Assembly (NCBI GenBank): GCA_905221615.1
Contig: CAJNDT010006002.1
Span: 346,501 to 410,500, forward strand
Source of the DNA: Symbiodinium sp. CCMP2592
Taxonomy: Eukaryota > Sar > Dinophyceae > Suessiales > Symbiodiniaceae
DNA length: 64,000 nucleotides
Direction of reading: 5' to 3'
Part shown: positions 16,672-40,611 of the stretch, in pieces
Layout: every line of letters starts with the position of its first letter
Numbering within the stretch: the stretch's first letter is position 1
Made by a program: the position numbers and the translations under genes
The notes under the pieces: model-generated
Told to the model about the DNA's origin: nothing
Seen by the model: the letters and a program-made list of their open reading frames with translations, nothing else
Databases searched by the model: none

Positions 16672-16725
16672 CGTGTTCAGAAGTTTTGCTGTAAAGCTGG
16701 TGCCAAGCCCAGAGACCAGTTGAAC
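16672..16725 (-). CDS. LF-LG repeat family exon (candidate)
   Basis: GCGAG|GTT acceptor, phase 0, reads VQLVSGLGTSFTAKLLNT. The core LVSGLGTSFTAKL matches the 12-residue pattern x-L-[FV]-x-x-L-G-x-x-F-x-x. It is the downstream-most member of the dense minus-strand series. Donor not defined. Confidence 0.4.
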
Positions 16726-17289
16726 CTCGCTTTACGCTTTTGGGCTTTTGGGGTTTCAGGGCTTAGGGTTTTAGAATAGGGCTCCTTGAAAAGGGCCCTT
16801 TAAGGGATCTATATTTGGGTTCTGCATTAGAGGGGCCTGGATAATTAGTGTCGGGAGTCGGGGTATATTGTACTATAATCCCCACAATTTTCTTGGTAGT
16901 TATTTCGGCCCCTATATTACTACGGTTTAGTAGTCTAGCGGTGGGATTAAGCAGGTCGTTGACAAACAATCTGAACGGTAAACGGGGCATGGTTGAATTC
17001 TTGAGCAACCAGAACCTGTGCACATCGGAGCAGAAAACTGTGGAGCTTTCAAGGTGTACTGGCTGCTTGGCGCACGAACTCAGGGCTCGAGAGTCTAGCA
17101 ATATACCAATTAATGACATTTGGGGGAGTTCAATTCAAAAAGGACACTCGGACCCCGAAACAAGAGACCACTAGTTTCAGGAAGAAGCTCTCTCAAAACA
17201 TGTTTCGGAGTCTGTACCCTAAAGGCCCTAGATTCTTAGATTTCTTAATACTACAACTACTACGACGACTCGTGGCATCTCCCTTTGTT

Positions 17290-17447
17290 TCACAAATCAG
17301 GACTCCGAGCAGCCGTGTAGGATGTTCCCAGTTGCTTGAAAAGCTCGCCGGCCTCAGCTTTGGTATCCACGGTTTTTTTTAAAAGTGCAATGGCTTCTTT
17401 CTGTGCACGAGCGAGCTCGAGCAGGAAGTTGCCTGCCTCACGAGGGG
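17290..17447 (-). CDS. LF-LG repeat family exon, long (candidate)
   Basis: AAG acceptor, then 51 open codons: REAGNFLLELARAQKEAIAL followed by KAEAGELFKQLGTSYTAARS, and a stop. The GELFKQLGTSYTA segment is a textbook match to the repeat. The preceding charged helix gives it a coding character unlike the surrounding telomere-like DNA. Confidence 0.45.
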
Positions 17448-17524
17448 CTTACACAAAGTGTCCAGACGAAGCACTTACGGCCTCACAGACACATCACACA
17501 ACATTGCTAAGCATCACGACTTCG

Positions 17525-17527
<3 letters not shown>

Positions 17528-17592
<65 letters not shown>
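17528..17592. repeat. (CT)n microsatellite
   Basis: About 32 uninterrupted CT units. Confidence 0.9.
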
Positions 17593-17595
<3 letters not shown>

Positions 17596-17805
17596 CAGAC
17601 TCCAAGGAACTATACGGTTTAGGGTTTAGGGTTTAGGGTTTAAGAACAGTTTGGTTTGGGGGTGTTTAGGGTTTCGGGCTCGGGGGTTTTGAATTTTGGG
17701 CGTCGGGTTCAGCTCTGCAGCTGGGGGTTTACGGGGACCTTGGTGGTCAGGTTCGAGGGCTCGGGGTCTAACTTCCAAGCCCGCACCACCACTTCCATGA
17801 CCACC

Positions 17806-17926
17806 ACTTGGAAGGGCAGGGGACTTAGTAAGTAGGTTGTAAGTAGAGTTATAAGTACCCTAAATGGAGTTACCCCAATGATAACCCTACTTATAACCTA
17901 CTTACTAAGTCCCCTGCCCTTCCAAG
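17806..17926. mobile_element. Inverted-repeat element, family A
   Basis: Ends ACTTGGAAGGGCAGGGGACT and inverse, flanked by CACCAC on both sides. It sits in a CCACCA-rich stretch. Confidence 0.8.
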
Positions 17927-18708
17927 CACCACCCCGGGCAGCAGTAATGGCGTCGCATCCTCAAGACTACAACCACCGGATCCATATCCGAGCAACATCA
18001 TCCTCGGCACCGTCACGCCCATCAGCATCATCCACAATCGTCATCCTCGTCCTCCTGCTCCTCCGCATGATCATCGACCAACCGTCGCTGTCAGTAGCGC
18101 AAGTGAGTTCACGTGTGTCAAAAATCGGCATTGTGCTCTTCGTCATTGCTCAGAGCAACAGGCAATTATCGACAAGGGCTCTTCATCACCACGTTCATCA
18201 TGCATGGTCGTTGACACAGTCAGAACCGCCCTGTCTGATGCCATGACAAAGACAAAGCAATTGCCAGGAAATGATGCAAAGCGTGGAACCCCATCTTAAA
18301 GTTCCAATTACAGGGCACCTTCAACGCCTTTTCAAACACTTGCCATCACAACACCAAAAGGGCCTTGCACCCGACAACCCTAAACCCAAGACCGTTTTAA
18401 TATGCAACGCGTAGATACACAGTCCATAGAAGCCTCAACAAGAAAACTGAACCTCGTTAACCATAGCCCTAAAATTCTCGAACTACAACAAGCAAAACAA
18501 CACATCGCCCAAAAGCAAAACGGAACAACTCCAAAGCAACTCCCAGACCCAACAGAGGAAACCACAACACTGAGTAACACTAAACTGTCCAAGAAATGTG
18601 AAAATAAGACATCTCCGTCTCACCTTCCCTCCTTCCCCAACCCCTAAACCCTAAACTGAGCCAAACCCTCAACCCCAACCCCTAAACCCTAAACCCCCTA
18701 AACAAAGT

Positions 18709-18805
18709 ATACTGAACTTAGAACCCTAGCAAAAATCATAACTTTAGTTGTTTCTTAGGGACTATAATAACCAAAAATCAAAAAATATTTCTAAGTACCC
18801 CTAAG
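18709..18805. repeat. Dispersed 97-bp repeat, family H copy 1
   Basis: Starts TATACTGAACTTAGAACCCT and ends AGTACCCCTAAG. A copy of about 80-85% identity by eye lies at 47,057-47,153. Terminal inversion is not obvious. Confidence 0.7.
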
Positions 18806-18815
18806 AAAGGTTGGC

Positions 18816-18900
18816 CGGGAGGCGAAGTCGCTCCCCAGGCTTTCGAAGAGCCGCGCGGCCCAGCCGTGTCCCAGTCTTTGGAGCAGCTGGGCCTCAAGCG
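18816..18900 (-). CDS. LF-LG repeat family exon (strong candidate)
   Basis: CTGCAG acceptor, then LEAQLLQRLGHGWAA and RLFESLGSDFASRP in one frame: two consecutive 12-residue units (QLLQRLGHGWAA, RLFESLGSDFAS). GC-rich coding-like composition contrasts with flanks. Its 3' side runs into the family H repeat. Confidence 0.5.
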
Positions 18901-19619
18901 CTGCAGGCGTCGTGTTTATATAAAACACTAGGGGGTGGGGGGTTGGGGGTTGGGTTTAGGGCTTAGGGTTTAGGGTTTAAGGTTTAGGGTTTAGTGCTTG
19001 AGGGCTTTAGGGTTTAGAGTCTAAGAGGTTTTGTAAGGTCATTTCGCCTCGGCCATGCTTGGATGCTTGTTTCTAGCTTTTGCGCAGACCGGCTCCGAGT
19101 CGAGACTACCCTCCGACTCATGCCACTATCACACGCACCCGAAAGGCCCTAAAGCCCAAGACCCAAAAACCCTAAGAAGCCCCAATGCCCTGAGCCCCTA
19201 AACCCGAAGCCCTCGAACCCTAAACCCCAGAACCCGACATAGGGTTTCTCGATTCTAGATCATCTTGTTAAACCCGGTGGAATTTCGGGTTTGCTGGGAT
19301 GTTTGGCTTCTAAACGTCGTGAAAGCTCCGCAGGCTGGTCTGGGGAGAGCCAGCGAATTAGGGCCTTGTGTTTCGGGTTTAAGGTTTGGATTTAGGGGTG
19401 TAGGGTCTTGGGGAATAGGGTTTGGAGGTTTATAGGGTTTAGGGGTTTACGGATTTGGGGAGTTGGGGGTTTAGGGGCTTAGGAGTTTCGGAGTTAGGAA
19501 TCTAGGGCTTAGCCTCGACGCGCATATTGGACTCAAAAGCCGAAACAAAAATCTGAGATGTAAGACCCCTGCAGCCCTGAAACCGAAGCCCAAACAGCGA
19601 CAACCCGGAATCCGGGGCT

Positions 19620-19691
19620 TTTGAAAGATTGTGCTGGAGGCACCACGAAGGTAGGCGAAAGCCGGAGAAAGAGCCGGGCGCAAAAGGGAGC
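19620..19691 (-). CDS. LF-LG repeat family exon (candidate)
   Basis: ATCGAG|GCT acceptor, phase 0, reads APFCARLFLRLSPTFVVPPA. RLFLRLSPTFVV matches the repeat with S for G. The N-terminal PF-x-x-x-LFLRL is shared with the exon at 26,985-27,088. Confidence 0.4.
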
Positions 19692-20232
19692 CTCGATCTT
19701 GATGGTACCGAGATCAGGGTGCATCATTGAAGGCTTCAACTCTTCAGGGCGCAGGATTTGGGGTTTAGGGTTTAGGGGTTGGGGTTTAGGGTTTCATAGT
19801 CGTTTGGGGTTGAACTTTCAATGCTGAGGGTTTAGGCGTTGCTTCGGAGTTCCATGCTCAGGGTTGGTTACGTTACATCGCACTATACAATGCAAAATCA
19901 ACAAACCCTGAACCCCAAACCAGCAACCCTGAAACCTCTCCTAAGCCCTAAGCCCTAAACCCTGAAACCTTAAGCGTAACCCTCAAAAAACTGACCCGAA
20001 GAGCTCGCCATTTGACTTGATCGGCTAATTACCCTGTTTGCCCCTTACTTTGGGTTTAGGGTTGAGGGTGTGCCCACACCCTACGACCGCATGTACTAAG
20101 TCACTACAGCATGCAGGAAACCCCCTTCGCCGTGGGGAAAGCCCCTACTGGCCTAATGAAGCCCAAAGCCAAACGCCATAACCCAGGTTCCAGAACCTCA
20201 AGACTGCGTAGCCTTTGTACTACTGCCCGGGA

Positions 20233-20360
20233 TTTAGGAGTGAAGTGTACAGCCTACATGGGAGTTTCCGAAAATTACGGGTACCTTATTTGGGGGGTGC
20301 TTTCTTAGGGTCCCCTATTTTTGGAAACTCCCATTTAGGAGTGAAGTGTGCAGCCTACAT
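20233..20360. mobile_element. Short family B element between 27-bp direct repeats
   Basis: A 74-bp internally deleted family B copy (20,260-20,333; ends TGGGAGTTTCC and inverse). It is bracketed by 27-bp copies of a sequence starting TTTAGGAGTGAAGTGT at 20,233-20,259 and 20,334-20,360, with one mismatch. The flanks are far longer than the 4-bp duplications of other family B copies. Confidence 0.85.
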
Positions 20361-21167
20361 GATCGCTCTTAGCCTCAGACCAAAGGCCTGGTAACTTCAC
20401 TGTAGCTCTGTAACTCGAGCTGTAGGAGACAGGCACGGCAGTGCGAAACCCATGTTCAGGTCTCAATTACTCGCTGTGACCCGGTTGTGAGTAAGGACCA
20501 CTGGAATTGCGGCTTAGTTTCGAGGGCCTGGGGTTTGGGGTTGAAGTGCTGGTATGTTGGGTTTGGGTTTTGGGGTTTAGGGCAGGCTGCGTGCACGGGT
20601 GTTGAAGACCCGAGAGGTCTAGTTGTGTTTTAGTCCAAAGGCAGACACTCTTGCAACGAGCTGGTGTGTAATGTTTATCGCACTTAGCTGGTAGGGCTGG
20701 AAGCAAACAGTAAACAATGGTGGCTACAGTCTACAGTACCAGTATCATTATATAGCGGTAAGAATACAAAACCGAAAATCACAAGAAGCCAAGAAACCCC
20801 AGCACAAAGCATCACAAGATCTTCAGCTATTGACCAGCCTGGTGCTAGCTAGAATCTGTGATCGTACTGCTTCCGGAGTCAAAAGCCCTAATTACTACTA
20901 TGACTATTCAACAGAATATGCCCCCAAATCTGTACCCCAAACAGTAGCTAAGCTATCAGAGAAAACAAGCCTGACATAGCACACAGACACACGTCCAACA
21001 CGGAAAGTGTACGATCCCCTACAGTGCGCCACCCAAACCCTTGAACTCCAAACCCTGAGCCCTGCGGACTTGAAGATTGCAGCCAGCCCTCATAACCAAC
21101 AACCCGAAACAACAATACCCCAACTCCCCGCCCAACAGAATAAAGCAATGCCAAATCCCTAATAACT
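20361..21167. other. Region without a confident gene
   Basis: Short open frames, one with YTPARCKSVC at about 20,640 on the minus strand, and telomere-like text. No defended exon. Confidence 0.4.
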
Positions 21168-21238
21168 TAAGGGTGCAAGTCAAGCCCAGGAGTTCCAGAC
21201 AGGCCGCACCCAGGTCCCTGAACATTGCGTTCACAAAC
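21168..21238 (-). CDS. LF-LG repeat family exon (candidate)
   Basis: GCCGAG|G acceptor, reads FVNAMFRDLGAACLELLGL. The spacing F-x-x-x-[ML]-F-x-x-L-G is the same as in the exon at 25,122 (DFLSKLFRHLG). Confidence 0.4.
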
Positions 21239-21269
21239 CTCGGCCAAGTAGTTTTTGGGATTACCTAGA

Positions 21270-21336
21270 CCCTCAAAAGTAGGTAAAATAATGGCCTAAA
21301 CCCTGTAAAAGGCTATTATTCTACATACTTTTGGGG
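21270..21336. mobile_element. Short inverted-repeat element, family J
   Basis: CTCAAAAGTAGGTAAAATAA and GGCTATTATTCTACATACTT TTGGGG are inverted with a 20-bp loop. A single clear copy. Confidence 0.55.
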
Positions 21337-21448
21337 CCCAGGTAAGGGTTTAGGGCTATAGGGTCCTGGCTTTGAATTGTGGCCGTGGGCGCAAGATTTG
21401 GCATAGGGCTTTGTCTGCGGGAATAGTGGGATCCAGTGCGTAGGGTTC

Positions 21449-21507
21449 AACCAAAACCCTAAACCCTAAACCCTAAACCCCTAAACCCTAAACCCTAAAC
21501 CCTAAAC
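21449..21507. repeat. CCCTAAA array
   Basis: About eight units, two with an extra C. Confidence 0.85.
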
Positions 21508-22102
21508 CGTTCAGGGTTCACGGCTTCACGCCCTCAACCCTGAGACCCGAATCCAAACCCAAAGCCCTAAAAGCAGAGGCTAGAAGCCCCAAACCCAGAA
21601 CTCAAGACCCTATGACCCAAAACCCCCAAAACCCCAAATCCTAAAACCAGCAAATCCTGAAACGTTGGGCTATCCTAGGGTGCTGCACCTGAGCAGTAAG
21701 CTTCTGCTTAGGATAGCTTCAGAAGGTGCCCCCACGGCTCCTCAATTCAATAGGGTTTAGGGTTTACGGTACACATCACCATCCGGCACGCTGAAGCACA
21801 TGGCAGGATTGGGAAGATGACGACGTGGACAAACGAGGAATTCAGGTGATAGTGCTGGTGGTGCTGGTGGCTCGTGGGTGTGCCGAACTTGCTCATGGTC
21901 CATACGGCGGTAGTTACAGGATTGGAGGTCGAAGGGTTTGGGATTGGGGCCGGTAGCCATAATCGCGGCAATCATGGTAGCAACAGCAAAAACATGGTAA
22001 TTAAGACCGACCGAGAGACGGCGTTCCCAAGGACAGGAAGAGGTCTGCTGTGAAGTCGTCACCCAAATGCCCTGGGAGTCGGGCTTCACAAGGCAGATAC
22101 AC

Positions 22103-22410
22103 ATTGTCGAAATTATGCCCCCTTTTTGGCTACCCTAAATTTTCAGTGCCGTTCTCTAATAAGGACTCAAAAGGGAGTTTCCGAGGATTAGGGGTACCTT
22201 AGTTTGGGGTCCTTATAATCAGGATCCTACTATTTGGGGTAGTATATTAGGGTTCCCCATCTCCGGAACCCCAAAATCAAAGGATCCTGCGATTTGGAGT
22301 AGTATATTATGTTGGGGAAACCCTAAACCCTAAACCCTAAACCCTTCCCCATTTCCGGAACCCCCCCCCCCCCCAAAAAAAAAAAGGACCCTAATTTTGA
22401 CAACCACCCA
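22103..22410. mobile_element. Family D element split by family B, with telomere-like insert
   Basis: Left half of family D (22,103-22,172) and its right end (22,381-22,410, TAATTTTGACAACCACCCA) are separated by a family B element (22,173-22,272). That element is flanked by AAAA duplications. It is followed by a second, partial copy of its right half, which carries a perfect 27-bp (CCCTAAA) insert at 22,318-22,344. So family B inserted after family D. Confidence 0.75.
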
Positions 22411-22538
22411 CGACTTGAGCCTTTGGCACTTGAGACCGCCGGGAGGTGCAGGGCGGAGAGGCCACTAAGGTCGATTTCATGCCAAAGCCACTGAAAAACC
22501 TACCTTGTGTGGGTTCCTTATATGGTTTCTATCTCTCT

Positions 22539-22539
22539 T

Positions 22540-22570
<31 letters not shown>

Positions 22571-22584
22571 GAGAGAGAGAGAGT
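22539..22584. repeat. (TA)n(GA)n microsatellite
   Basis: TA dinucleotides pass directly into GA dinucleotides. Confidence 0.85.
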
Positions 22585-22847
22585 CCCTTAAAAAGTGGTA
22601 TGTGCAGAATACTTCCCTAAGAGGTGCTGCGACATACGTGCTGCTAGCTGTCGGTATAGATGCCCTGTCGGAACCTCGCGATATACAGACTGGGTCCCTT
22701 TCGTGTGCCTTCGCAAATACAATAACCTACTCCCAAAGTGTCCATAAATTAAATGGGTCTGCCATTTCCGGGAACTCCCATAACTCCGCAAACCTTAAAC
22801 CCTAAACCCTGCTAAACCCCTAACCCGTAAACCCTACACCTGCGTGT

Positions 22848-22928
22848 TCCGAGCCCACGCCATGCGCAAGTTGAAGACAAGGCACGGAAGAGCTGCGAGA
22901 CGAACCCGGAACCAAGAATGGCGAAGAG
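22848..22928 (-). CDS. LF-LG repeat family exon (strong candidate)
   Basis: GCTCAG acceptor, phase 0, reads LFAILGSGFVSQLFRALSST. Two units in register (xLFAILGSGFVS, QLFRALSSTCAW). One of the clearest members. Confidence 0.5.
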
Positions 22929-23689
22929 CTGAGCACCTCATTGGGGTTTAGGGTTTAGGGTCTTTGTTTAGGGGTTTAGGGTTTAGGGAGGGTTTAGGGC
23001 CTAGGGTTTACGGTTTAGTTTGGGTTTAGGGGGTTTTAGGGCTTAGGGATTCGGGTCGCATGGCGCCGTAATTGTAGGCTCGGACTTCATCACGAGGTCA
23101 CAAATTAGTACTTACTAATTTCTGAAAAGGACAGCCCCAGACAGCGCATCTATACCCACGATGTGTAAGCTACATACTAAGTCGCCTGATCCTAAAACCC
23201 CCATTTATCAACTCATACGCGCCTATCTCCCAAGGTGCTGCACCCAACTCTTCCGTGCGAAACAACGGGTTACAAGCACTACCCGTGGTCTTCCAGCTTT
23301 GGCTTAGGATGCTTCAGGGATTTAAGGCTTTGATCGTCCAAACTCTTCAAACAATCCGGAAACATAACATCCTCTAAAACCAACATTCAACCATGATCCA
23401 GTATGTGTCATCCCCAAACCCTGCGCCGTACTCTTCGCCCCCGGAAGTAGGGGTTTCAGGGTTTATGGTGTCGGGGTTTCAGGTTTGAGGGTTTCAGGGC
23501 TTAGGGATTTCAGGGGTTGGGATTTAGTCCTTCGGGTCTAAAGAATAGGGTTTAGAGCTCAGAAGTTTAGAGTCTTGGTCCAGTTAAAACCTGAAACCCT
23601 CAAAACCCTGCATCTGTAACTCTCGCCCTTTTGCCCCCAAATCATACCCAAGCCGCAAACCACAGATATACTTGCAGCCAACGGCGCAG

Positions 23690-23757
23690 AAAGTCGCTTC
23701 TAATTTGGCAAACAGCTCTGCGGCATAGCCATGACCAAACCCTGTGAAGAGACGGGC
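23690..23757 (-). CDS. LF-LG repeat family exon (strong candidate)
   Basis: ACTCAG|GCC acceptor, phase 0, reads ARLFTGFGHGYAAELFAKLE then ATFCAVG. Units RLFTGFGHGYAA and ELFAKLEATFCA are in exact 12-residue register. Confidence 0.5.
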
Positions 23758-24798
23758 CTGAGTTCGCCCACGACGGCTCAGGCTTTTAGGGTTTAGGGTT
23801 TAGATCTTTGGGGTTTCGGGTATGGGGGGTTCTGAGGTTAGGGTTTAAGGAATATAGATTTTAGGGTCAAGGGCTCAGGGTCTAGAATTTCGGGTTCACC
23901 AATCTCGCGAAGACCGCTAGTATATACTAAGAACAATGCTAGCATTTGGGTCGTCAAGGTCCGGGTTCCGCAGTGGAGGCAACATCGGATGGAATGCTAG
24001 TGAGAGCGACCCTGCGACGACTGACGTGACAAATAGTACCGTGATTTGTGAAACGTATCCATATTGCTGTCAACAATATCCGAACGGTTGTCGACATGCT
24101 TATACTCCTCGAGTTCTTGACATTATTAACCATATTTTCCAAACATGGATAATTAAATGTTAGACCCTACACCCGACACCCCCAAAGCATAAACCCCTAG
24201 ACTCCCAGCCGATGCTGGTGCGATACTATTGCTGGTGCAGGACCTACGTGCAGTTTCAGGGGACTTTAGCGGTCAGGTTCAGGGTTTGGGGTTTGGGAGG
24301 CTGGTTGCGATACAACGCCGGTAAGATCCTGACTGCTCAGACCTCTGATCCTTTCAGTAGCAAGGATGGCTTATGAAACAAGGACTGCTTACGGTCAGCA
24401 GTTCGGCTATTAGGCAATCTGGCAGTCTTTTCTGGTCCGAATATCTGAATCTCCTATGAAAAACTCCAAACACTGTTCGAATGGGACTCTATGCTACTTG
24501 CACACGGGTTTGGAGGGCTTCGTAAGATTAGATTGGATCTAGAGGGATTGAGGACATTGGTCACGGATTTGTGTTTAGAGTTTCATGGTTCAGGGTTTTA
24601 AGGTCAAGTCGGATGCGTCTCTTTCCCCTGCAGCTTCCTTTGAACCTCCTTCTTTGTTCGTCTGGCTCCGAACAGCCCGGACAGTGACTAAGACCTCCAA
24701 ACCCCGAACTATAAGGGTTTATAGTGTTGAGGGTTTAAAGGGTCTTAGTCTTGGGCTTGGGACCAGGGTTTAGGGTTTCGGGGTTCCGGGATCAAGGC

Positions 24799-24884
24799 CT
24801 AGGGCTTCCATTCCCGCATCCGAGAAGCCAAGAATTCCGGCTGCAGCTTGTCGTAAAGTCGCGTGCAATACTCCTGCAGCTGTT
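24799..24884 (-). CDS. LF-LG repeat family exon (candidate)
   Basis: CTGCAG acceptor, reads QLQEYCTRLYDKLQPEFLAS then RMREWKP and a stop. RLYDKLQPEFLA fits the repeat with Y for F and Q for G. Strongly protein-like. Confidence 0.4.
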
Positions 24885-25121
24885 CTGCAGGGGACATGGC
24901 TTTAGGGTTTAGAGTGTTAGGGGTTGTATGTAGAGTACACGGCTTTCCATCATTAACCTCAGCATCCTTCCACTAGCTACTGTAAGAATCAAGACTACTC
25001 GCCACCCCGACATTGCAACACCTTTCGCATTTTTGTAAAACCACCTGGAACTCTTTTCTAGTACCCCAAACCCTGATAAAACCTCCACATAAGCTGACCT
25101 TTTCAGTACCCTAGACCCCGA

Positions 25122-25209
25122 GCCCGATAGAGGGTCCTTGCCCATGAGGTGGTGGACGCTGGCCGTCCAAGCGCTCCCCAGGTGCCGAAAGAGCTTCGAC
25201 AAAAAGTCG
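25122..25209 (-). CDS. LF-LG repeat family exon (strong candidate)
   Basis: GGGCAG acceptor, reads DFLSKLFRHLGSAWTASVHH. It shows the full consensus D-F-x-x-x-L-F-x-x-L-G-x-x-W-x-x and stays open for about 40 further codons. Confidence 0.5.
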
Positions 25210-25633
25210 CTGCCCATCTCCTCTTTGTGCACTTTCGGGGTGACTTGTACTGAAATTTAGACAGGTGGCAGTGTCAGTACGAACATCATAGCAGCTGTCA
25301 GCCACGCAAGAAACGTATGACTACATATGACTACGACAGACTTCGACGTAGCCATTGGGGAAAAGTCACCCTTGATTTCAGAACCCGGAGGACATAGACT
25401 ATCTCGCCCCGGGATACTGTGCTAAGATTCCAAACCCATGAACCTAGTCTTACTCCAGGCCATAGGGGCTCTACAGCTTCAGCAGGGCATCGGGGTACAT
25501 TCTATGTCACAAGCTCCGAAAAAAACTAGGCCGTAAACCATAACACCCGAAAAAGCCCTAAACCCTTACACCCAAAACACATAAACCCTAAACCTGAAAC
25601 CGTAGACCCTAAACCGTAAACCTTTAAATACCT

Positions 25634-25714
25634 TTAAAACCCAAAGCCACGGGCCTTGAAGAGCTCCGAAGAGTAGCTGGCACCAAGTGTCTGAAATAGG
25701 TTGGCCGAGAAGTC
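25634..25714 (-). CDS. LF-LG repeat family exon (strong candidate)
   Basis: CGAAG|GAC acceptor, phase 0, reads DFSANLFQTLGASYSSELFK. Two units NLFQTLGASYSS and ELFK. A GC donor (AAG|GCCCGT) directly after ELFK is possible; otherwise a stop follows seven codons later. LF is written CTA TTT here and CTC TTC elsewhere, so the similarity is at the protein level. Confidence 0.5.
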   Translation of the reverse strand, partial: DFSANLFQTLGASYSSELFKARGFGF

Positions 25715-26449: not shown

Positions 26450-26506
26450 CCCCGACACGGCATTGTCGTCCTCCCCAAGCCTTGCGAAGAGTACCTGGAC
26501 GTAGTC
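26450..26506 (-). CDS. LF-LG repeat family exon (candidate)
   Basis: CCACAG|GAC acceptor, phase 0, reads DYVQVLFARLGEDDNAVS. D-[FY]-x-x-x-L-F-x-x-L-G is shared with 25,122, 25,634 and 34,800. Confidence 0.45.
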
Positions 26507-26984: not shown

Positions 26985-27088
26985 TTACTTAAACCACCCT
27001 GGTGCCTGGCCGAGCCCCACCAGCAGGCCGCCAGCAAAGCCGTGGCCAAGGCGAAGGAAAAGGTCGGAGACAAAGGGGACACCCAGGC
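26985..27088 (-). CDS. LF-LG repeat family exon (strong candidate)
   Basis: CCGAG|G acceptor, 33 open codons: GVPFVSDLFLRLGHGFAGGL then LVGLGQAPGWFK and a stop. Units DLFLRLGHGFAG and GLLVGLGQAP are in register. The plus strand is also open across this GC-rich patch; family resemblance decides for minus. Confidence 0.5.
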
Positions 27089-28214: not shown

Positions 28215-28280
28215 CCCCTGTGATGCTGTGCGACTGGAGTAGAGCACAGCCGTAAACTGAGGCCCAAAGGACCGGTGCAC
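28215..28280 (-). CDS. LF-LG repeat family exon (candidate)
   Basis: CGCAG|GTG acceptor, phase 0, reads VHRSFGPQFTAVLYSSRTAS. G-x-x-F-T-A-x-L-[FY] is shared with 16,672 (LGTSFTAKLL) and 29,052 (LGSSFTAQLF). Confidence 0.4.
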
Positions 28281-29051: not shown

Positions 29052-29131
29052 TCATGGCCATGGCACTTCGCGGGTAAAGAGCTGCCCAGCCGTGCCGAAG
29101 AGCTGGGCGGTGAAACTAGATCCCAACTGAC
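29052..29131 (-). CDS. LF-LG repeat family exon (candidate)
   Basis: CTGCAG|G acceptor, reads QLGSSFTAQLFGTAGQLFTR then EVPWP and a stop. Close in layout to the exon at 30,061 (MGSSFCIALYGAPKLFRV). Confidence 0.45.
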
Positions 29132-30060: not shown

Positions 30061-30130
30061 TCACAAGAAGGGGCAAACTCGAAAAAGTTTGGGCGCACCG
30101 TACAGGGCGATACAGAACGACGAACCCATC
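30061..30130 (-). CDS. LF-LG repeat family exon (candidate)
   Basis: CTGAG|G acceptor, reads MGSSFCIALYGAPKLFRVCP and stops after 22 codons. Aligns over 18 residues with the exon at 29,052. Confidence 0.4.
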
Positions 30131-30850: not shown

Positions 30851-30918
30851 AAACTTTTCCGGGTCTCTTCCGGTGCGCGTCGCCAGTCCACTCGCTTCCC
30901 AGGCCCACGAAGAGATCA
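30846..30918 (-). CDS. LF-LG repeat family exon (candidate)
   Basis: CTGCAG acceptor, reads DLFVGLGSEWTGDAHRKRPG. DLFVGLGSEWTG is an exact 12-residue unit. Immediately downstream is a CCCCTAAA array. Confidence 0.45.
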
Positions 30919-30942
30919 CTGCAGAAGCGATGCCTCAAAGGG

Positions 30943-31526: not shown

Positions 31527-31753
31527 CTACTTGGAAGGGCAGGGGACTTAGTAAGGGCTCTTAAAGGGCTCCTTAAAGGGATCTATAGGGTTCCTTAAAG
31601 GGGTCTATGGGGTTTAGGGTTTAGGGTCTACTTGGAGGGGCAGGGGACTTAGTAAGTAGGTTATAAGAAGAGTTATAAGTACCCTAAATGGAGTTACCCC
31701 AATTATAACCCTACATATAACCAACTTACTAAGTCCCCTGCCCTTCCAAGTAG
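31527..31753. mobile_element. Composite inverted-repeat element, family A
   Basis: A family A end fragment, a GGATCTATAGGGTTCC interior with TTTAGGG text, then a complete family A copy (31,628-31,753). Same order as at 3388-3609. Confidence 0.8.
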
Positions 31754-31829: not shown

Positions 31830-31947
31830 CTAGATGGGAACTACCCAGTAACCTAAGAAAAAAAAGGCCTCTCTTTTTGGTATTGGGTAACTTTATAAGG
31901 AACCTAGGACTACAAAAAAGGAATAAGGGTACTACTGGGCATCCTAG
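31830..31947. mobile_element. Inverted-repeat element, family I
   Basis: CTAG...ACCCAGTAACCTAAG to GGGTACTACTGGGCATCCTAG. About 95% identical by eye to 56,479-56,589; a relative lies at 43,033. Confidence 0.75.
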
Positions 31948-32210: not shown

Positions 32211-32410
32211 TCCTTCGAAGGATCCCTTAAAGGATTTCTTGAGGGGAGCCTTTCCCCGATCCCTGAAGAGAGCTCTTAAAGGACCCCTTAAAGGAGGAGC
32301 CCCTAAAGGGAGCCTCAAAGGATCCTTCAAAGGAGGAGCCCTTAACGGATCCCTTAAAGGAGGAGCCCTTAAAGGAGCCCGTAAAGGGACCCTTAAAGGA
32401 TCCCTTTAGG
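32211..32410. repeat. GGATCCCTTAAAGGAG repeat cluster
   Basis: About ten imperfect short units of CCCTTAAAGGA(GGAGCC), related to the interior of composite family A elements. A similar shorter cluster is at 39,455-39,545. Confidence 0.65.
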
Positions 32411-32425
32411 AAACTCCACAACCGT

Positions 32426-32506
32426 CTAAGCCGAAGGTTTGTCGAGCGACCCCAGGGCGAGAAAGAGCTCCTGCACGTAGGTGGCCCCGAGCTTCTGAAA
32501 GAGCTC
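32426..32506 (-). CDS. LF-LG repeat family exon (strong candidate)
   Basis: GACAAG|GAG acceptor, phase 0, reads ELFQKLGATYVQELFLALGS then LDKPSA and a stop. Units ELFQKLGATYVQ and ELFLALGSLDKP are in perfect register, the clearest example of the repeat. Confidence 0.55.
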   Translation of the reverse strand, partial: ELFQKLGATYVQELFLALGSLDKPSA

Positions 32507-33541
32507 CTTGTCAGAAATAGGGGCTTTAGGGTGATATAGCGGTTGTAGGGTTTAGGGCTTATGGGGCTTATGGGGTTTAGGGTGTAGGGCTTGTAGGGTT
32601 TAGCTGCTGAAAGAGCTCCTCCTCCCAAGAGGGCTTAGAGGGTTTTGAAGGCTAACATTTCTTGACCGCTTTGCCCTTTTCAGGGGCATGCAGAAGGAGT
32701 ACTAGGTACCGCAGCTAAATGCTAAAGACTCAACCCTGGACCTTTGCGTTTGTTGCAGGCGTCCCAAGCATCGGGACCCCTGTGCTCAGTGAGGGTTTAA
32801 AGGCAGCATCTCGATTTTGAGATATTGGTGGTTTGGGGTATTGTATGTGACAAGGATTGACAAGGCATACACAGTGGTGGGCTCAAAGATGTGAGTTGAG
32901 TATACCGAATTCTGCGCTGGATTAGAAAGGATGTATAATTTGACTGCTTCTCGCACCTATGTCTCCATTCTCTTGACACTGAAACCCTGTACCTCCGAGC
33001 ATTCCATCCTGAACCGCTTGGAAAAACCCTGAACCCTTCCTTGCAAACCTCTCATTCTCACAGGCTCTGCGAACCTAGAGGACTTAGAAAGCAGGCTTCA
33101 AGCAGACCTAGAGATTGGCTGAGCCCGAGTAGGGTACTTCTTCTGACCAAAGTTGTAAACCTACCAAGTTCCTGATGCTTTGGACAACCCTTCTCGAACC
33201 CTTATGTTTGCCTTTAACCTTTATAATACCACCCTATGTAAAACATGCCTTTGGGGTAGGGGGGTAGTCTTGTATAAGGGTTTCAATATAAAGGTTGCAT
33301 ACGAGTTCATTGAAGGGGCCCTACAAACATGTCCTGCAGGGATTTAATTTAGGTTTAGGGTTCAGGCTTAGCTTCCTGAAAATCCGTTTCAGTCTTTTGG
33401 GTTTGGCTGATGGTTTTGATGATATCGCTAGGTTTAGGCCTTGGGGCTTAATGCTGCTTCGGGTTTGGGCTTGGGTCTATGGTCTAGGATTTAGCGTTTT
33501 AATGCTTTGAGGTGCAGGGTTATGGGTAATAGAGCCGCCAC

Positions 33542-33633
33542 TCAAATTGCTGTTGAAACCAAATCTTCTGATATCGGACGAGGCACCGCGCAAAAGCTGG
33601 TGCCAAGTTTGCCAAACAGCCTTGGCACAAGGG
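33542..33633 (-). CDS. LF-LG repeat family exon (candidate)
   Basis: CTAAG acceptor, reads LVPRLFGKLGTSFCAVPRPI then SEDLVSTAI and a stop. RLFGKLGTSFCA is an exact unit. Confidence 0.45.
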
Positions 33634-33773
33634 CTTAGGAAGTAAATCCTGGGTTGATATAGGGGCCTTCAGAATCAGACGAGGGGGCAGTATAGACGAT
33701 CACTACAATCAGGAACTCCAAGAAAAATAGTCTTCCTAGTTTTTCAGCTTCTATACTAACCCTACCGCGTACC

Positions 33774-33870
33774 CCAGAAAGTTGGAGCATGGGTTTAGGA
33801 TGGTTTGTGCTAGGATCCCTTATACTTCACCTTAAGGCCATGAGGATTCTGATGTTCCAACGTTATGGTT
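33774..33870. mobile_element. Inverted-repeat element, family C (diverged)
   Basis: CCAGAAAGTTGGAGCATG and GATGTTCCAACGTTATGG are weakened inverted ends. Confidence 0.5.
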
Positions 33871-34159
33871 TCTACTATAAACCCTCAGCATTAACTCACA
33901 TCACAAAAAACGTGCAACAACAGCTTCCCACCAAGAAGCTGCGCGGAACTTTCAGCAGACATGGTCGAGAGCATTTCAGAGGCGAAGGCAGGACCTGAAA
34001 CTCTACCAAGATACTAGGGTTTAGGATTTAAAGCTTCGGGCTAATGGTTCTCAAAAGGTTCTATACTAGGGTTTAGGATTTAAAGCTTAGGGTTGAGGGT
34101 TCGGAACGCCAAGGAAAAGAAGTCTGCACGGAAGGATACCAGCATGCCAGCATAATGTC

Positions 34160-34430
34160 ATGAATCATGAACACGAGAACTCGCGATGGCGGTGGCGTTG
34201 GTGGTGTTTGTATTGCTACTGGTGCTGGTGACCGTGATGGCTGTGGCCCTCCTCCGGATTACGATGACGACGATGAGAATGATGATCACGGGGAGTATGG
34301 CGATGACGAAACCTTTGCCTGTGAGAAGGAGGAGGATGTGATGTTGATGTGTCACGATGAAGATGACACGGATGCGGACATACCTGTAGGAAATGTCGGC
34401 ATCGCTGTCGTCATTCCGACTTGAAGTTCA
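34160..34430. other. GAT/GGT-rich cryptic simple DNA
   Basis: An open plus frame here reads as Asp/Glu/Gly-rich text because of cryptic GAT and GGT triplets. No domain; coding status unproven. Confidence 0.4.
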
Positions 34431-34799
34431 GGGTCTGTTCTGCGACCAGTAGCAGGAAGTTGGACAGATGTGTGCTCTTCGCATGGTATTCACAAACTGA
34501 ATATGACAATGCATCTTCAGAACACCACAACCCCGAACACGCCAAATATGTGGGTTCTGGCAAACGTGTGGAAGGCCTTTCCAAACACAGACAAGCGATG
34601 TAAGCACGTCTCTACTCGGGAAAATTGCAGCAATGGAGTCTTGCAAGAGTCTTTATCGGCTTTTCGTGCTGTAAGGTGTATGCCAGCGGCTGATCAATAC
34701 GCCGCACCGCCTCGTGGTTGGATAAATTGCCTAAACCTTGTCAATGAGGGGAATTCAGTTTATGTGGCCCGAACCCTAGACTAGATCCAACAATCTGAA

Positions 34800-34872
34800 G
34801 AAAAGGGGAAGACGAACCGCCAACCTTCCCGGTCGCGCGGCCTATGCTTTCGAAGAAATTCTCGAGAAAGTC
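34800..34872 (-). CDS. LF-LG repeat family exon (candidate)
   Basis: CTCAAG|GAC acceptor, phase 0, reads DFLENFFESIGRATGKVGGS. It matches D-F-x-x-x-[LF]-F-x-x-[LI]-G. Confidence 0.4.
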
Positions 34873-35037
34873 CTTGAGGGGTGTTAGGGTTCAGGTTTTT
34901 TTCACGGATAAGGAGGGTTTTAGGGATTAGGGGGAATAGGGGGGTAGTGTGTAGGGGCTGAGATTTAGAGTTTAGGGCATTGCTTGGTTTAGGGTTTCCG
35001 TTCTCGAAAGGGGTACGTACTGTCGGCCCTTGAGAGT

Positions 35038-35119
35038 TTAGGCTTGAAGGTTTTGGGGTGGCGTCAGCAAGTCGCCCGTGGAGAAGGCTCTAAAGTACAC
35101 CTCTAAACTCCCCTGGACC
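35038..35119 (-). CDS. LF-LG repeat family exon (candidate)
   Basis: CGCAG|G acceptor, reads VQGSLEVYFRAFSTGDLLTP then PQNLQA and a stop. The core is less typical (YFRAFSTGDLL). The plus strand is open too. Confidence 0.3.
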
Positions 35120-35549
35120 CTGCGTGACTTGGAGCACGGGAAAGTCTGAGAGAATGGAGGATGTTGCGACTCCAGATGGTACGATTCGCCTCCCTCAACA
35201 TGCGCTGCCTGAAAAGGATCCCTAGTTGATCGAAACCCTTACACCCTGTATCCTGAGATCCTAAAGCCGAAAACCTTATCCTAAACCCTAAAACCCAAGC
35301 CTGTATCTGACTTACGCGTTTCGTGTTTCGGGTCCCCTATCATCGGCATGCCGGCAGAGAGACCGAGACAGACATCTTAACTCTCTGGCGCAAGCGCGGT
35401 CATAAGCCCCTGGGGCCCCACCCCCTGTGACGGTGCGGGGTTTGCGGGCCCAAGAAAGCTTGAACCCCTGAACCACAAGTCCTGAACCTGAAACCCTTGA
35501 TGCTACACACTCACCAGCTCTATCTCCCTGCAGTAAACGGCCTGCTAAA

Positions 35550-35564
35550 CTCTCTCTCTCTCTC

Positions 35565-35620
<56 letters not shown>
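35550..35620. repeat. (CT)n(AT)n microsatellite
   Basis: CT dinucleotides followed by a long AT run. Confidence 0.85.
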
Positions 35621-35624
<4 letters not shown>

Positions 35625-36089
35625 GTCGATATATCTGTAATATAGGTATCTACGTAATTGCTTTTCTTTAACTACGGAAAACTCCTGCCAAAAAACATGC
35701 TTACACAAAAGCGTTTATGCAACCCCTCGAAAGCGTTCAAAGCCGATGAGGAAATGCCCGTATCCTAAACCCCAAACCCCCAAAATTGATAAATACTCTG
35801 GAACGCGGCGAAAACCTATGTACAACCATTTCCAGAACCCTTACACAACCCTCCGAATAACACCCAACAGAAATATGACAAACCCTTCAAGAACCATATA
35901 ATTATAAGAAGGCTTGCAAAAGCCGAGGAAATCCCCCGCAACCTAAACCCTAAACCCTAAACCCTGAATCCTAAAGTCCTAAAGCCCAGACCCTAAAGCC
36001 TCAACCGCCTTAACCCCTTCGCAAAAAAACCCTAAACCCTGAACCCTTAAACCCCCACCCCCTCTCCAAAACAAATAAAGGAAGCAACG

Positions 36090-36199
36090 CCCTCTACTTG
36101 GAAGGGCAGGGGACTTGTTAGACCCCTTTAAGGAACCCTATAGATCCCTTTAAGGAGCCCTTTAAGAGTCCTTACTAAGTCCCCTGCCCTTCCCTCTAC
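36090..36199. mobile_element. Short family A element with alternative interior
   Basis: Family A ends (TTGGAAGGGCAGGGGACTT and inverse) enclose AAGGAACCCTATAGATCCC instead of the usual core. An 8-bp CCCTCTAC duplication flanks it (36,090-36,097 and 36,192-36,199). It touches the 3' end of the next exon. Confidence 0.8.
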
Positions 36200-36274
36200 G
36201 CGCCGCCAAGCTTCCGTCTGCAGCTGCGTGAAAAGCTGCGCCGCCCAAGCAGCCCCGAGCTCGACCAGGAGCTC
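36200..36274 (-). CDS. LF-LG repeat family exon, 75 bp (strong candidate)
   Basis: CTAAAG|GAG acceptor and an apparent CGC|GTAG donor give exactly 25 codons in phase 0: ELLVELGAAWAAQLFTQLQT then EAWRR. Units ELLVELGAAWAA and QLFTQLQTEAWR. The donor GT lies inside the target duplication of the adjacent family A element. Confidence 0.55.
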
Positions 36275-37699
36275 CTTTAGTGAGGGTTTACATAAAGGTT
36301 TTTTGTTTTTAGCACCTTTTTCCGTCTGCACAGGCTGGTCTCTGCATACGAAAGGCCAGCATAAAGTTTAAGGTTTAGGGTTTATGGGTTTAGGGTTTGG
36401 GGTTTAAGGTTTGATTAGGGTTTAGGAATTAAGGTTGAAGGCTTAGGGTTAAGAGTTTATAATGAGGAACCCCCAAAATCGTGTAGGTAATTGTTGAGGC
36501 CCCCTATAGTAGGGTCTGATCTGAAGTCTAGAACTGTTCCCTACTTTCGGGAAGTGTTCACCTCAACTGCGCCAGAAGCCGAACCGAACCCGGAAAAATC
36601 CAAACCCTACACTGCCCTAAACCCATGACAGAAGAGACAGACAAGCGTCGGCAGCGAAGTTGCTCCCCAGTTGCTGGAAGAGCCTCGGAACCCAATACCC
36701 TAAGCAGATAGATAATAGTGTGTAGGGTTTGGATACTCGAACTCGAAACCATAGCATATGGGCCTTGACAATCAGCACAGTGCTAGAAGGGAACGAAACT
36801 GGAACTAGAGAGGGCTAAAAGGGACTAGCGGTTAAGAACTCATTGATGTCTGTACATCGAAACGTGAAACCACCAACCCATGAACTAGCTGCAAGCCCTA
36901 CCCCGCGCATATCGCCCCTCACTGATATGCTTCTGAACTGGAGCCAACCCTGATTCAAGGATCAGGGCATGTAGTAAGTAGGCTGTAATTTGGTAAAGTC
37001 CCATTACAAACCTGGCCACAATGTCCCCGAAGAATCAAGCCGGCACCTACAATATACACCCACGCAAGGGGAAACTCCCAATGAGCTCAGTATATTCGCG
37101 CCATACCGAATTCCCTACTGTAGTTGTCAAACCCAGGCCTATCTTTCACTTGAGCATGTGTACAAGGAAAGTACAGGGAAAAAACAAAAGAAAACCCAAC
37201 AAACAACATTACAAAGAACAACACTCACACAAAAACATGGTGTTTCAGGGCTCATATACAAGGGGAACAGTGACATGCTTCCTACATGCCGCGAGACCCT
37301 GCCGCACGCCCTGGGCCAAGTTCGACGAACGTGGCCTGCCGGGGAGTTAAAGTCATACAACCGCAAACCCTGAACTTTGAACGCTTTGATGGGGTTTAAG
37401 ATTTACTATTATAAGGATCTTATTGAGCAACTCACGGTGTAGGATGAACGTAGGGCTTGGAAACACCATTTTTGGTGTAGGTTGAATTTGTCTGGAGTTT
37501 GGAAGTTTAGGGTTCATTTGGAGGCCGAGGGTGCAGGATTTCCGGGCTGGTAGCCACCTATCACTAGCCATGGGCATCAATGTGCAGTGGTTCCGCATCT
37601 CGGAGGAGACCATGATAAAATCCCAATACGGAGGATTCCTAAACTCTAAAAATCAGGGTCTAAAGGGGTGCTAGTTTTTGCGCTGTAGTGGCCGGGTCT

Positions 37700-37845
37700 G
37701 ATTTCGGGATCTCTCACTTTCCGAGACGCCCACATGGCAGCGCAAGCAGGAGCAAAAAGCAAACAACTGACCAGATGAACGGACCTAGAAAGATGCCTAA
37801 ACAAATGTGCTGGTGGCCCTTTTCGCAAAGCACCACTCCGAATTC
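37700..37845 (-). CDS. LF-LG repeat family exon (candidate)
   Basis: GCGGAG|G acceptor, reads GPPAHLFRHLSRSVHLVSCL then LFAPACAAMWASRKVRD. HLFRHLSRSVHL fits the repeat, followed by a hydrophobic LLFAPACAA stretch. Two plus-strand frames overlap this region; I prefer minus on motif grounds. Confidence 0.4.
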
Positions 37846-38590
37846 CTCCGCGGACTTCTGCTGCTTTCCTCCACAGGTCGTGGCCCAACCACTTTGTTCG
37901 CCAGGACCTTCCAAGTCGGGAGCGGCATCGGCTGCTTCTGCCGCTGGCTGTGGCTGTGGTGCTGCTGCCTCCCTGCTACTCGGCTGCAAATGGGGAGAGC
38001 AGGGCCTTGCGGTTGTTCAGCTGCTCTGGCCACAACTCTAGCTTGCCTTGCGGCAATCTCCCCTGCCGTCCTTCTACGAGTACCGTCCTGTCAACAGCAA
38101 GCACGGGGTCCCTCCGACGGTCGCCAGTGCCGCCAAAGTGAGAATGGCTGTCAACCGCTCTTGCACACCCGTAGCCCTTGCACATAAACTCAGGAGGACC
38201 GGCCGGAGGGGATAACAGGCAATGTCAATATTTCCCCACAAATCCTGATTGTTCCGACTTCTAAACTCCAAACCCTGATTCACCGCCAAACAGTAGAACC
38301 CAAACCCAAACCTGTCAGACAGGCTTCGGGGCTTATGCTTTGGGCTGCTTGTGCCTGAGAAGAAGTTAGGGACTGAATCTGAATCTGCGCAAGAGCTCTC
38401 AACCTTCATACCTTCGTGCCACAACTCAACCCGGGCCTCTATGTTAGGAATTACTGCTATGATTTGGGGAAGTATCCCCCATAACAGTACCTATAGGACC
38501 CTTTAAGACTTGAAACCCCTAAGACCTACACACCCTAAATCTAAGACCTAAACCCCTACGACCTCAACCTTCAACACCTAAGGTAAGAGC

Positions 38591-38698
38591 CAGAAAGTTG
38601 GAATATGATTATCCTAACCCTTCCATGGTAAATCATAGGGTATCCTACCATGAAACCATATTCCCAACTTTCTGGAGTTCCCTGTAAACCAAAGACCT
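38591..38698. mobile_element. Inverted-repeat element, family C
   Basis: CCAGAAAGTTGGAATATG and CATATTCCCAACTTTCTGG with AGTTCCC beyond. Confidence 0.75.
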
Positions 38699-38769
38699 AC
38701 GCCCCAAACTCCCTGAGTACCCAAGCCCCGAACCCTTAAGCTCCAAAGCTCCAAAGAAATTTAGGGTCC

Positions 38770-38870
38770 TTGGTTTAGGGTTTAGGGTTTAGGGTTTAGG
38801 GGTTTAGGGGTTTAGGGGTTTAGGGTTTAGGGGTTTAGGGGTTTAGGGTTTAGGGGTTTAGGATTTAGAA
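38770..38870. repeat. TTTAGGG/TTTAGGGG array
   Basis: About thirteen mixed 7- and 8-bp units, the longest telomere-like run here. It abuts the exon at 38,876-38,942 on its 3' (minus) side. Confidence 0.9.
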
Positions 38871-38875
38871 TGGGC

Positions 38876-38942
38876 CCGCAAAAGGTGGCTGGCGGCACCT
38901 TAGCCACCTCGAGGCCAAGTTTGTGAAACATGGCAGCCGAGC
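38876..38942 (-). CDS. LF-LG repeat family exon (candidate)
   Basis: CTTCAG|G acceptor, reads SAAMFHKLGLEVAKVPPATF. MFHKLGLEVAKV matches the first half of the repeat. The frame then runs into translated telomere repeat. Confidence 0.4.
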
Positions 38943-39226
38943 CTGAAGGGATCAATCTTTAGGGTTCAGGGCTTTGGGTTTAGGGTCCCGGGCTGGCGAG
39001 AGGAATTCTAGGAGGCTCTGTGAGGGTTTACAGGTTTTAGGGTTCGGCGTTTACGGTTTGCTAAGGTAAGGGATTTCATAGGGTTCGATAAAGCTTTGAC
39101 AGGGATCTATAACGGGTTAGAAGTTTTCGAGCGAGTTTTAGAGGATGCCTCAAACGGTTTAGCCACGTTTATACTGTCGCGGCTACAACTCGACTTGATA
39201 TTGCTCTTGTATTGTACTTTACCCTA

Positions 39227-39306
39227 AGGCCCCGAAGTAGTTCCATTTTGGGGTTCATATATAGAATTCTATAAGGTAATCCCAAAAAGGAACTACTTTG
39301 GGGCCT
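39227..39306. mobile_element. Inverted-repeat element, family F
   Basis: AGGCCCCGAAGTAGTTCC and GGAACTACTTTGGGGCCT around an 80-bp core shared with 27,842. Confidence 0.75.
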
Positions 39307-39328
39307 CTGCGTACTTGCTGCCACGAAC

Positions 39329-39436
39329 TGTTCTAAAGTCCCAGCGACCCGCCGCGCCCAAGGCTTTCAGGGCAGCGGCTGAGATGACGCCATCGCCCGC
39401 AGTAGCTGCGGATGCAGCCGTCGAAGCGAGGCAAGC
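39329..39436 (-). CDS. LF-LG repeat family exon (candidate)
   Basis: CTAAG|GCT acceptor, phase 0, Ala-rich: ACLASTAASAATAGDGVISA then AALKALGAAGRWDFRT. Only ALKALGAAGRW resembles the repeat. The plus strand is open as well. Confidence 0.3.
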
Positions 39437-40526
39437 CTTAGCGTTTAGTGTTGAGGGATCCCTTAAAGGAGCCCTTCAAGGATCCCTCAAATTCAAGGAT
39501 CTCTTAAATTGAAGGATTCCTTTAAATTGAAGGATCCCTTAAAGTCTGAGTGCTTAGGCGTTGGCAGATTTCGGCTGCAGTTCCGTTGTTGCTTCGATTT
39601 CAGGGTTTCGAGGTTTAGGGGTTCAGGATTGCGGTGGGTCGGAGGCGTGTTTGCCACTTGCTGCACTTACTGATTACCACCGCGCGAGCGTTAAACTTCT
39701 ATGCTCTTTCTATGTGTTAGTTCAGGTTGTTACTGAAGCGCTCGTACGCGAGATGGTACGTAATCTTGTTCTGTCCATTACGGAATTCACCGTTCTGCAG
39801 GAAACACAATCTCCGGAAGGGACAGGGACCATTTGAAAGATGAGGGCTCGAAGAACAGGGTTCGGGAAAGCGGAGATGGGCGGTACCAAGGGATCGGAGT
39901 TAGTGATTTAGGGTTCAGATGTTCAAGCCTACCAATTTGCAGAATGGATTCGTCGTATCCTACTCATATTCAAAAATGCTGCTCTCGAAATGCAGGTGGC
40001 TCCATGTTAGGAGGGACACGAATCGGTCCACACAATGTTGCCAGGCCATGAGACCACCGTCACATACCAGCGGTAGATACGCCAAACCGCCTAAACCCTA
40101 AACCGCAAGCCCTGAACCCTAAGCCCTAGAGCCTGAACCCCGAAACCCCTAAATCCCTAAAACCGCAAGCCCTTCCTTGTCATAAACCCTGTTTAGGGTT
40201 TAGGGTTTAGAGCCCCCAACCGAATATCCGAAACCAGAAAGCTTCCGATACCTTGTACGGAATAACAGTCGGGGCACTGTGCTGCTCTGGTCACATTGCT
40301 TCGCCAGTTCCGGGCAGCAGCAGCAAGACATCATGGTTGCCAGTCTTTCTCGAAATCCCAATCCCAAATCCCTAGGTTTGAGCGGAACCATACTTTCCAT
40401 TATTCGATCGGCATTATTTTGATGACGCAGAATGTTCAGACTATCATGTCCCTAAGCACCAGACGGCATCATATGGACTCAAGCACAACACCACCTACGA
40501 TGAAATCATGAAATGCACCTTCGAAG

Positions 40527-40611
40527 TCATACTTCTGAGGCCCTGCCTGTGGGAAAGGATCCTTGGCAGCAAAAACTGCACTTCAGCGCAAAAAGAACAT
40601 GACGAATTAGC
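40527..40611 (-). CDS. LF-LG repeat family exon (candidate)
   Basis: CCTAG|G acceptor, reads LIRHVLFALKCSFCCQGSFP then TGRASEV and a stop. VLFALKCSFCCQ fits the unit with K for G. Confidence 0.4.

Follow-up and report, generated by a model that had tools for sequence, protein, structure and literature searches.

The minus strand of a 64,000-nucleotide stretch of the genome of the dinoflagellate Symbiodinium sp. CCMP2592 (contig CAJNDT010006002.1, positions 346,501 to 410,500; this whole stretch is called the window below, and all positions are counted within it) carries an array of short coding segments for a 12-residue repeat. The strain is called S. tridacnidorum in PMC8045281. The array starts near 36,683, or tentatively at 38,008, ends near 16,678 and comprises approximately 24 exons of 29-87 nt (mean about 51 nt, together 1224 nt), separated by 23 introns of 299-1517 nt (mean 874 nt). 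When spliced, the exons encode 32-34 complete 12-residue units in unbroken succession, and no residue is gained or lost at the joins. The unit consensus is [EQRD]-L-F-x-x-L-G-[STA]-x-[FWY]-[AT]-A, with an aromatic residue at position 10 in 32 and Gly at position 7 in 27 of the 34 units counted. Judged from the sequence, the segments are probably consecutive micro-exons of a single Symbiodinium gene, which would encode a long alpha-solenoid of the ARM-like kind found in the MgtE N domain and in FliG, with a signature of its own.

Register and splice signals of the array

The repeat was first reported in an earlier note made from the letters of the window (the original prediction). In the window the expression LF..LG is found 19 times on the minus strand and 5 times on the plus strand, and the longer expression.LF..[LFM][GE]..[FWY].. 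12 times and not at all, respectively. A 12-column profile of 18 seed units gave 28 matches of at least 10 bits on the minus strand, none on the plus strand and one to four in each of five first-order Markov sequences. This comparison with the other strand and with control sequence, which had been suggested as a check, thus came out in favour of the repeat, although it is partly circular because the seed units were taken from the minus strand.

In the splicing-aware search, a cyclic 12-column profile was aligned to the DNA by dynamic programming, where stops were forbidden, codons could be split in any phase, GT, GC or GA donors and AG acceptors were admitted, and every exon had to resume at the profile position at which the previous one had ended. 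The seed profile scored 332 bits on the minus strand, whereas the plus strand gave 18.5 and the two reversed strands 19.2 and 14.8 bits. A retrained profile reached 485-488 bits on the minus and 27-28 bits on the plus strand (the exons it added outside 38.0-16.6 kb were weak and are not counted). Restricted to 38.3-16.3 kb and with insertions and deletions (indels) forbidden, the array scored 436, 458 and 480 bits at intron costs of 11, 10 and 9, and the plus strand 24, 25 and 33 bits. For the retrained model at intron cost 11, the 436 bits of the array compare with 13-21 bits for ten order-3 Markov sequences and 14-24 bits for plus-strand pieces. Hence the segments of the original prediction are real and, at 332-488 bits on the minus strand against 18-28 on the plus strand, better supported than it had claimed.

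The register is held across the exons. In a scan with the seed profile in which each join was made to skip 1-11 residues, the unshifted register reached 331 bits and the shifted ones 243-286, a penalty of 45 bits or more for every alternative. A search that lacks any splice-site rule recovers the same segments; since the boundaries slide in that search, it is not used as evidence on the acceptors. At the exon that starts at 25220, three variants of the join keep the register: two are computed, with the exon ending at 25164 and joined directly to 23757 (406 aa) or ending at 25137 and joined to 24873 (430 aa), and one was chosen by hand, with the exon ending at 25173 and joined to 24873 (418 aa). 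Together they account for the range of 32 to 34 complete units. Written in rows of 12, the 418-aa version, counted down to 16648, fills 33 complete rows, of which some fit poorly (DAHRKM, EMLSTMSAESSA and RGLGHL). Extensions of the array upstream of 38,020 (21.3 bits versus 13.8 on the plus strand) and downstream of 16,640 (22.5 versus 13.6) were not taken as signal.

A clear pattern was found at the acceptors. In the retrained 23-exon model, scored with no bonus for G, all 22 of them have a G directly after the AG (AG/G), or 23 of 23 with the extra exon, whereas the background in the region is 541 of 1514 AGs. The retrained profile had itself been trained with a 1-bit bonus for this G. The untrained seed profile, however, gave AG/G without any bonus at 15 of 20 acceptors (binomial probability 4e-4); the five that deviate comprise three filler mini-exons and two alternative starts of listed exons. 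The donors of the 23-exon model are GC (9), GT (8) and GA (5), but only these were admitted, and therefore only the G after AG constitutes an open test. The combination of GT, GC and GA donors with an AG acceptor that is often followed by G is that of a Symbiodinium spliceosomal gene. In S. minutum, GC donors have been reported to be nearly as common as GT donors, GA donors occur as well and the acceptor AG is frequently followed by G (PMC4083563), and the annotation of CCMP2592 permitted GA donors (PMC8045281). Moreover, the genes of S. minutum average 19.6 exons (PMC4083563), and thus the number of exons in the array is ordinary for the genus.

The 23 introns interrupt the 36-nt unit at 15 distinct offsets. 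An origin of the array by the copying of one exon was therefore rejected; 15 different offsets represent the pattern that is expected of introns gained after the array existed. The synonymous codon choice of the joined exons leans towards that of three neighbouring coding stretches by +0.153 bits per codon, whereas intron segments of the same strand give -0.19 +/- 0.05 over 500 sets, with -0.01 as the largest value, and plus-strand sets -0.14 +/- 0.06. That the third position is free to vary in the codons for Leu, Phe and Gly is weak as evidence, because the units were picked by protein pattern.

The proposal that a single large gene, interrupted by introns full of repeats, encodes an amphipathic helical repeat protein is thus supported by two findings, the exact 12-residue register across the joins and splice signals of the dinoflagellate type. 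Other parts of the original prediction have to be revised. It had described a family of dispersed exons of 60-160 bp in a span up to 40,611, whereas the computed exons are shorter, the array begins and ends at the positions given above, and the segments follow one another as exons of a single array whose introns vary in offset. The seven peptides that it quoted are all on the minus strand, with starts 64-80 nt upstream of where it had placed them (e.g. ELFQKLGATYVQ at 32506).

Likeness to MgtE_N and FliG_N and its alternatives

Whereas the original prediction had recognised no known family, the spliced protein is over the cut-off for Pfam MgtE_N (PF03448; E=1.9e-22, 80.1 bits, cut-off 25.9; four stretches) and weakly matches FliG_N (PF14842; 1.2e-7, 32.7 bits, cut-off 25; no single stretch passes alone). 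These were the only families listed in the Pfam scan. The best MgtE_N stretch is gap-free over 66 columns (residues 5-70 to columns 27-92), and a second gap-free stretch aligns residues 124-191 to columns 7-74, at equal lengths. Both halves of the protein are over the MgtE_N cut-off separately (2.3e-8 and 2.7e-13). MgtE_N was matched by none of the reversed, shuffled and 11 column-permuted versions of the protein, and shuffling or reversing the order of the exons left E-values of 0.11 and 4e-4, both below the cut-off. An artificial consensus repeat (115 aa) matched MgtE_N at 8.3e-13 in Pfam, but also 17 other families, with DUF4325 and FliG_N just over their cut-offs, and gave OspA (0.037) and MgtE 8gps (0.32) in a PDB sequence search; perfect repeats thus inflate the scores, and the consensus is not used as evidence.

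The importance of the register is illustrated by a crude concatenation of pieces of open reading frames (ORFs; 445 aa). It matched neither MgtE_N nor FliG_N, only EPS8_2nd at 0.03, below the cut-off, in Pfam, nothing below E=0.72 in a PDB sequence search and no protein homologue at E<=1, whereas the register-true join gave the MgtE_N match. A splicing-aware cyclic profile therefore represents a usable method to find micro-exon repeat genes where plain translated searches fail. In fact, a profile search of the strain's own genome with MgtE_N returned two other places and missed the array itself, because that search works exon by exon. One of the two (L002) is a low-complexity LNPKPLYKLLEN repeat. 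The other (L001, G000:C5051:2188162-2188464) lies on a contig of the algal assembly on which an intact MgtE gene adjoins a prepilin-like ORF; this gene set looks bacterial and would represent contamination or transferred DNA. The MgtE of L001 consists of 12-residue units in the same pattern as the array.

The hydrophobicity of the spliced protein has an exact 4-residue period, with autocorrelation peaks at 12 and 24. For two single peptides of the array (30 and 31 residues) AlphaFold2 predicted continuous helices, a model result that supports helicity and not turns. We propose that each unit would contribute one short amphipathic helix that starts with Ser/Thr8 and extends to position 6 of the unit after it, where Gly7 would end it. 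Leu2, Phe3, Leu6 and the aromatic residue at position 10 would then be in the core, and positions 1, 4, 5 and 9 outside. Together, the helices may wind into an extended right-handed alpha-solenoid of the MgtE N-domain/FliG ARM-like kind, which might perhaps act as a passive scaffold or as a peptide-binding surface. We also considered the 12-residue beta-helix of insect antifreeze proteins and rejected it: there are few Cys residues and no regular Thr-Cys-Thr, and the short pieces are predicted to be helical.

A number of observations weigh against the solenoid gene. One of the 11 column permutations, found among the first three, matched LRR_5 at 1e-12, which shows that periodicity by itself can be enough for a match to a repeat profile. 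The NCBIfam model mgtE (TIGR00400) was matched at 2e-6 with 26.8 bits, which is below its equivalog cut-off of 232.75, and a PDB sequence search of the spliced protein ranked MgtE 8gps first at an E-value of only 0.28. In neither of the short peptides does AlphaFold2 show a turn at Gly. In addition, codon choice exceeds that of the introns in the two remaining frames of the exons as well (0.09 and 0.03), and the variable positions of the repeat alone give 0.07, so that base composition explains part of that signal. Finally, the search for a homologous dinoflagellate protein, a check that went with the original prediction, yielded none in a protein collection with annotated proteins of CCMP2592 and of EukProt, where lengths from about 245 to 2166 aa were admitted and only the roughly 8000 candidates with most words in common were scored per search. 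The gene may have been overlooked by the annotation, its annotated model may be shorter, longer or of another form, or the gene may be unexpressed. That the gene was apparently missed may be ascribed to its exons, which average about 51 nt. Judged from titles and abstract openings, the papers listed on 12-residue and helical repeats in dinoflagellates and on MgtE in dinoflagellates do not deal with such a repeat, and none was listed on MgtE_N in eukaryotes.

The alternative that survives best, although we consider it unlikely, holds that the gene and its 12-residue repeat are real and that the likeness to MgtE_N is one of pattern only, as would be the case for, e.g., long amphipathic helices that bind a membrane or each other. 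The LRR_5 match, the continuous helices of the two short pieces and the PDB match that is not significant fit such an explanation, and so does the 4-residue period, which is unusual for one straight helix. However, none of eight column permutations of the second half, the one with the 2.7e-13 match, exceeded the cut-off of any family, and an ARM-like superhelix is described as common to the two families listed (PMC11870540). Moreover, among the BLASTP alignments between the array and the bacterial MgtE of L001, which are weak, two are gap-free over 81 and 83 residues, although the best-scoring one (27.3 bits) has 3 gaps.

It is more improbable still that the gene is decayed or unexpressed and the array a relic. 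The missing annotated homologue and the poorly fitting units would be in line with decay, but over 23 exons there is no stop and no residue indel (stops are excluded by the search as such, and indels were excluded in that run) and AG/G has been kept at the acceptors. We give very little credence to a magnesium transporter of the MgtE/SLC41 type that would have the array as its N-terminal part and its CBS and membrane domains in unrecognised nearby exons: MgtE_N is indeed the best family, but the array is roughly four times as long as the domain model of 102 columns and no CBS or MgtE membrane domain is listed for the ORFs scanned in the window. Chance, in the sense of a flexible splicing model that strings random matches together, can practically be dismissed, since even with short exons, three donor dinucleotides and a seed profile from the minus strand, the plus strand, reversed and Markov sequences reach 13-28 bits (intron cost 11-13) and at most 32.7 (cost 9), and the shift scan favours the true register.

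The single gene for a long alpha-solenoid therefore remains the reading that we prefer. A more general possibility, which we put forward tentatively, is that dinoflagellates have an unrecognised class of very long alpha-solenoids made of single 12-residue helices, with the geometry of the MgtE N domain over more than 30 units and their own Gly/aromatic code. With only 1-2.5 units per exon, such solenoids would be missed by gene finders and homology searches alike.

Exons of the array and neighbouring features

The exons are listed in Table 1. Masking costs at least 7.1 bits for 22 of the 24, the two tentative exons being the weak ones.

Table 1. Exons of the array in the order of transcription. 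Coordinates are from the retrained splicing-aware model; the loss in bits was obtained by masking one exon at a time at intron cost 10.
Peptide	Positions	Strand	Loss (bits)	Remarks
KALLSPFAA[E]	37980..38008	-	3.3	tentative first exon; acceptor AAG/GCC would put start at 38005
LFQQLGSNFAA	36650..36683	-	17.7	
ELLVELGAAWAAQLFTQLQT	36215..36274	-	29.4	
DFLENFFESI[G]	34842..34872	-	7.1	
PAFASEMLSTMSAESSA[Q]	33940..33994	-	19.3	
LFGKLGTSFCA	33587..33620	-	14.6	
ELFQKLGATYVQELFLAL[G]	32451..32506	-	32.2	
HRFCSDLFVGLGSEWTGDAHR[K]	30868..30933	-	27.4	
MGSSFCIALY[G]	30099..30130	-	14.0	
QLGSSFTAQLFGTAGQLFTRE	29067..29131	-	28.9	
VHRSFGPQFTAVLYS[S]	28235..28280	-	11.1	
LGVPFVSDLFLRLGHGFAGGLLVGLGQ	27006..27088	-	38.6	
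DYVQVLFARLGE	26471..26506	-	9.4	
DFSANLFQTLGASYSSELFK	25655..25714	-	30.9	
EMGSDFLSKLFRHLGS	25173..25220	-	29.6	end ambiguous (25164/25137 computed, 25173 by hand); loss with 25220-25137 masked
EYCTRLYDKLQPEFL	24829..24873	-	0.0	tentative; in computed model only at intron cost 9
ARLFTGFGHGYAAELFAKLEATF[C]	23688..23757	-	37.1	
AQLFAILGSGFVSQLFRALSSTCAWRGL[G]	22850..22936	-	34.0	final residues fit repeat poorly
HLGDDFTADLFLSLGT[P]	22020..22071	-	31.2	
FVNAMFRDLG	21208..21238	-	12.5	
APFCARLFLRLSPTFV	19644..19691	-	15.4	
AQLLQRLGHGWAARLFESLGSDF	18824..18892	-	38.8	
AGELFKQLGTSYT	17314..17352	-	21.2	
VQLVSGLGTSFTAKLL	16678..16725	-	15.0	last recognised exon; may extend to 16648

Two hairpin elements are present within introns of the array (17807-17926 and 31628-31753). 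They have arms of 46-51 nt that are 90-96% complementary, share GGGCAGGGGACTTAGTAAG and resemble miniature inverted-repeat transposable elements; by eye, the sequence at 36.1-36.2 kb resembles them. A further hairpin at 62157-62370 has two 98-nt arms, 94% complementary and 18 nt apart, is surrounded by palindromic units of the GGTACAACCGGTACAA type and translates to similar peptides on both strands. The dispersed repeat RPLFLVLGNFIRNLGLQK.NKGTTGHP has two plus-strand copies, at 31871 and 56513, and a CTA-type trinucleotide array of about 1 kb (12387-13443) leaves several frames open on both strands.

The minus strand also contains other ORFs. The one at 44289-44837 (182 aa) encodes proline-rich repeats of the APAAAPEVPPVYA type without a match in a Pfam scan, and could belong to the array's own transcription unit or be a separate gene. 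The ORF at 4334-5641 has RCC1-type repeats (RCC1_2, E=2.9e-60). At 52194-55305 a TPR ORF (TPR_12, E=2e-74) adjoins an ORF (53887-55305) that is 100% identical to a CCMP2592 protein named KCNB2. In two relatives, P0003 and P0006, which carry the names NPHP3 and KLC3, both parts are joined, and therefore the names as well as the split look doubtful. Scans of the window with Rfam (at the gathering threshold) and for tRNAs yielded nothing, and neither did a search of phage records with a neighbouring ORF.

Comparison with known systems

Like the ARM, HEAT, TPR and PPR solenoids, the array would consist of tandem amphipathic helices that are expected to stack. None of these families was listed in the Pfam scan of the spliced protein, however, and the units of PPR proteins are given as 31-36 residues (PMC11514114) versus 12 in the array. 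FliG is closer in that FliG_N is matched by the spliced protein, but the families of the middle and C-terminal parts of FliG are not listed for it and, consequently, the array does not qualify as a FliG. The four-membered right-handed superhelix of FlgY has been likened to the MgtE N domain and to the ARM-like motifs of FliG, a right-handed ARM-like superhelix being ascribed to all three (PMC11870540).

The clearest correspondence is with the MgtE N domain, which has been described as superhelical (PMC12941325). The domain shares with the array the 12-residue units and the same spacing of core positions, and the helical register is maintained without indels. Nevertheless, its model has 102 columns, whereas the array has 32-34 units. 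More specifically, in the MgtE of L001 position 7 is mostly Glu, Pro, Gly or Ser and position 10 is non-aromatic, unlike the array. Finally, the array would represent a eukaryotic micro-exon gene, and no CBS or membrane domain was seen in the ORFs scanned. If transcribed, it would yield a eukaryotic protein in which a type of repeat that is known from bacterial magnesium channels and flagellar rotors extends roughly four times as far as in the domain model.

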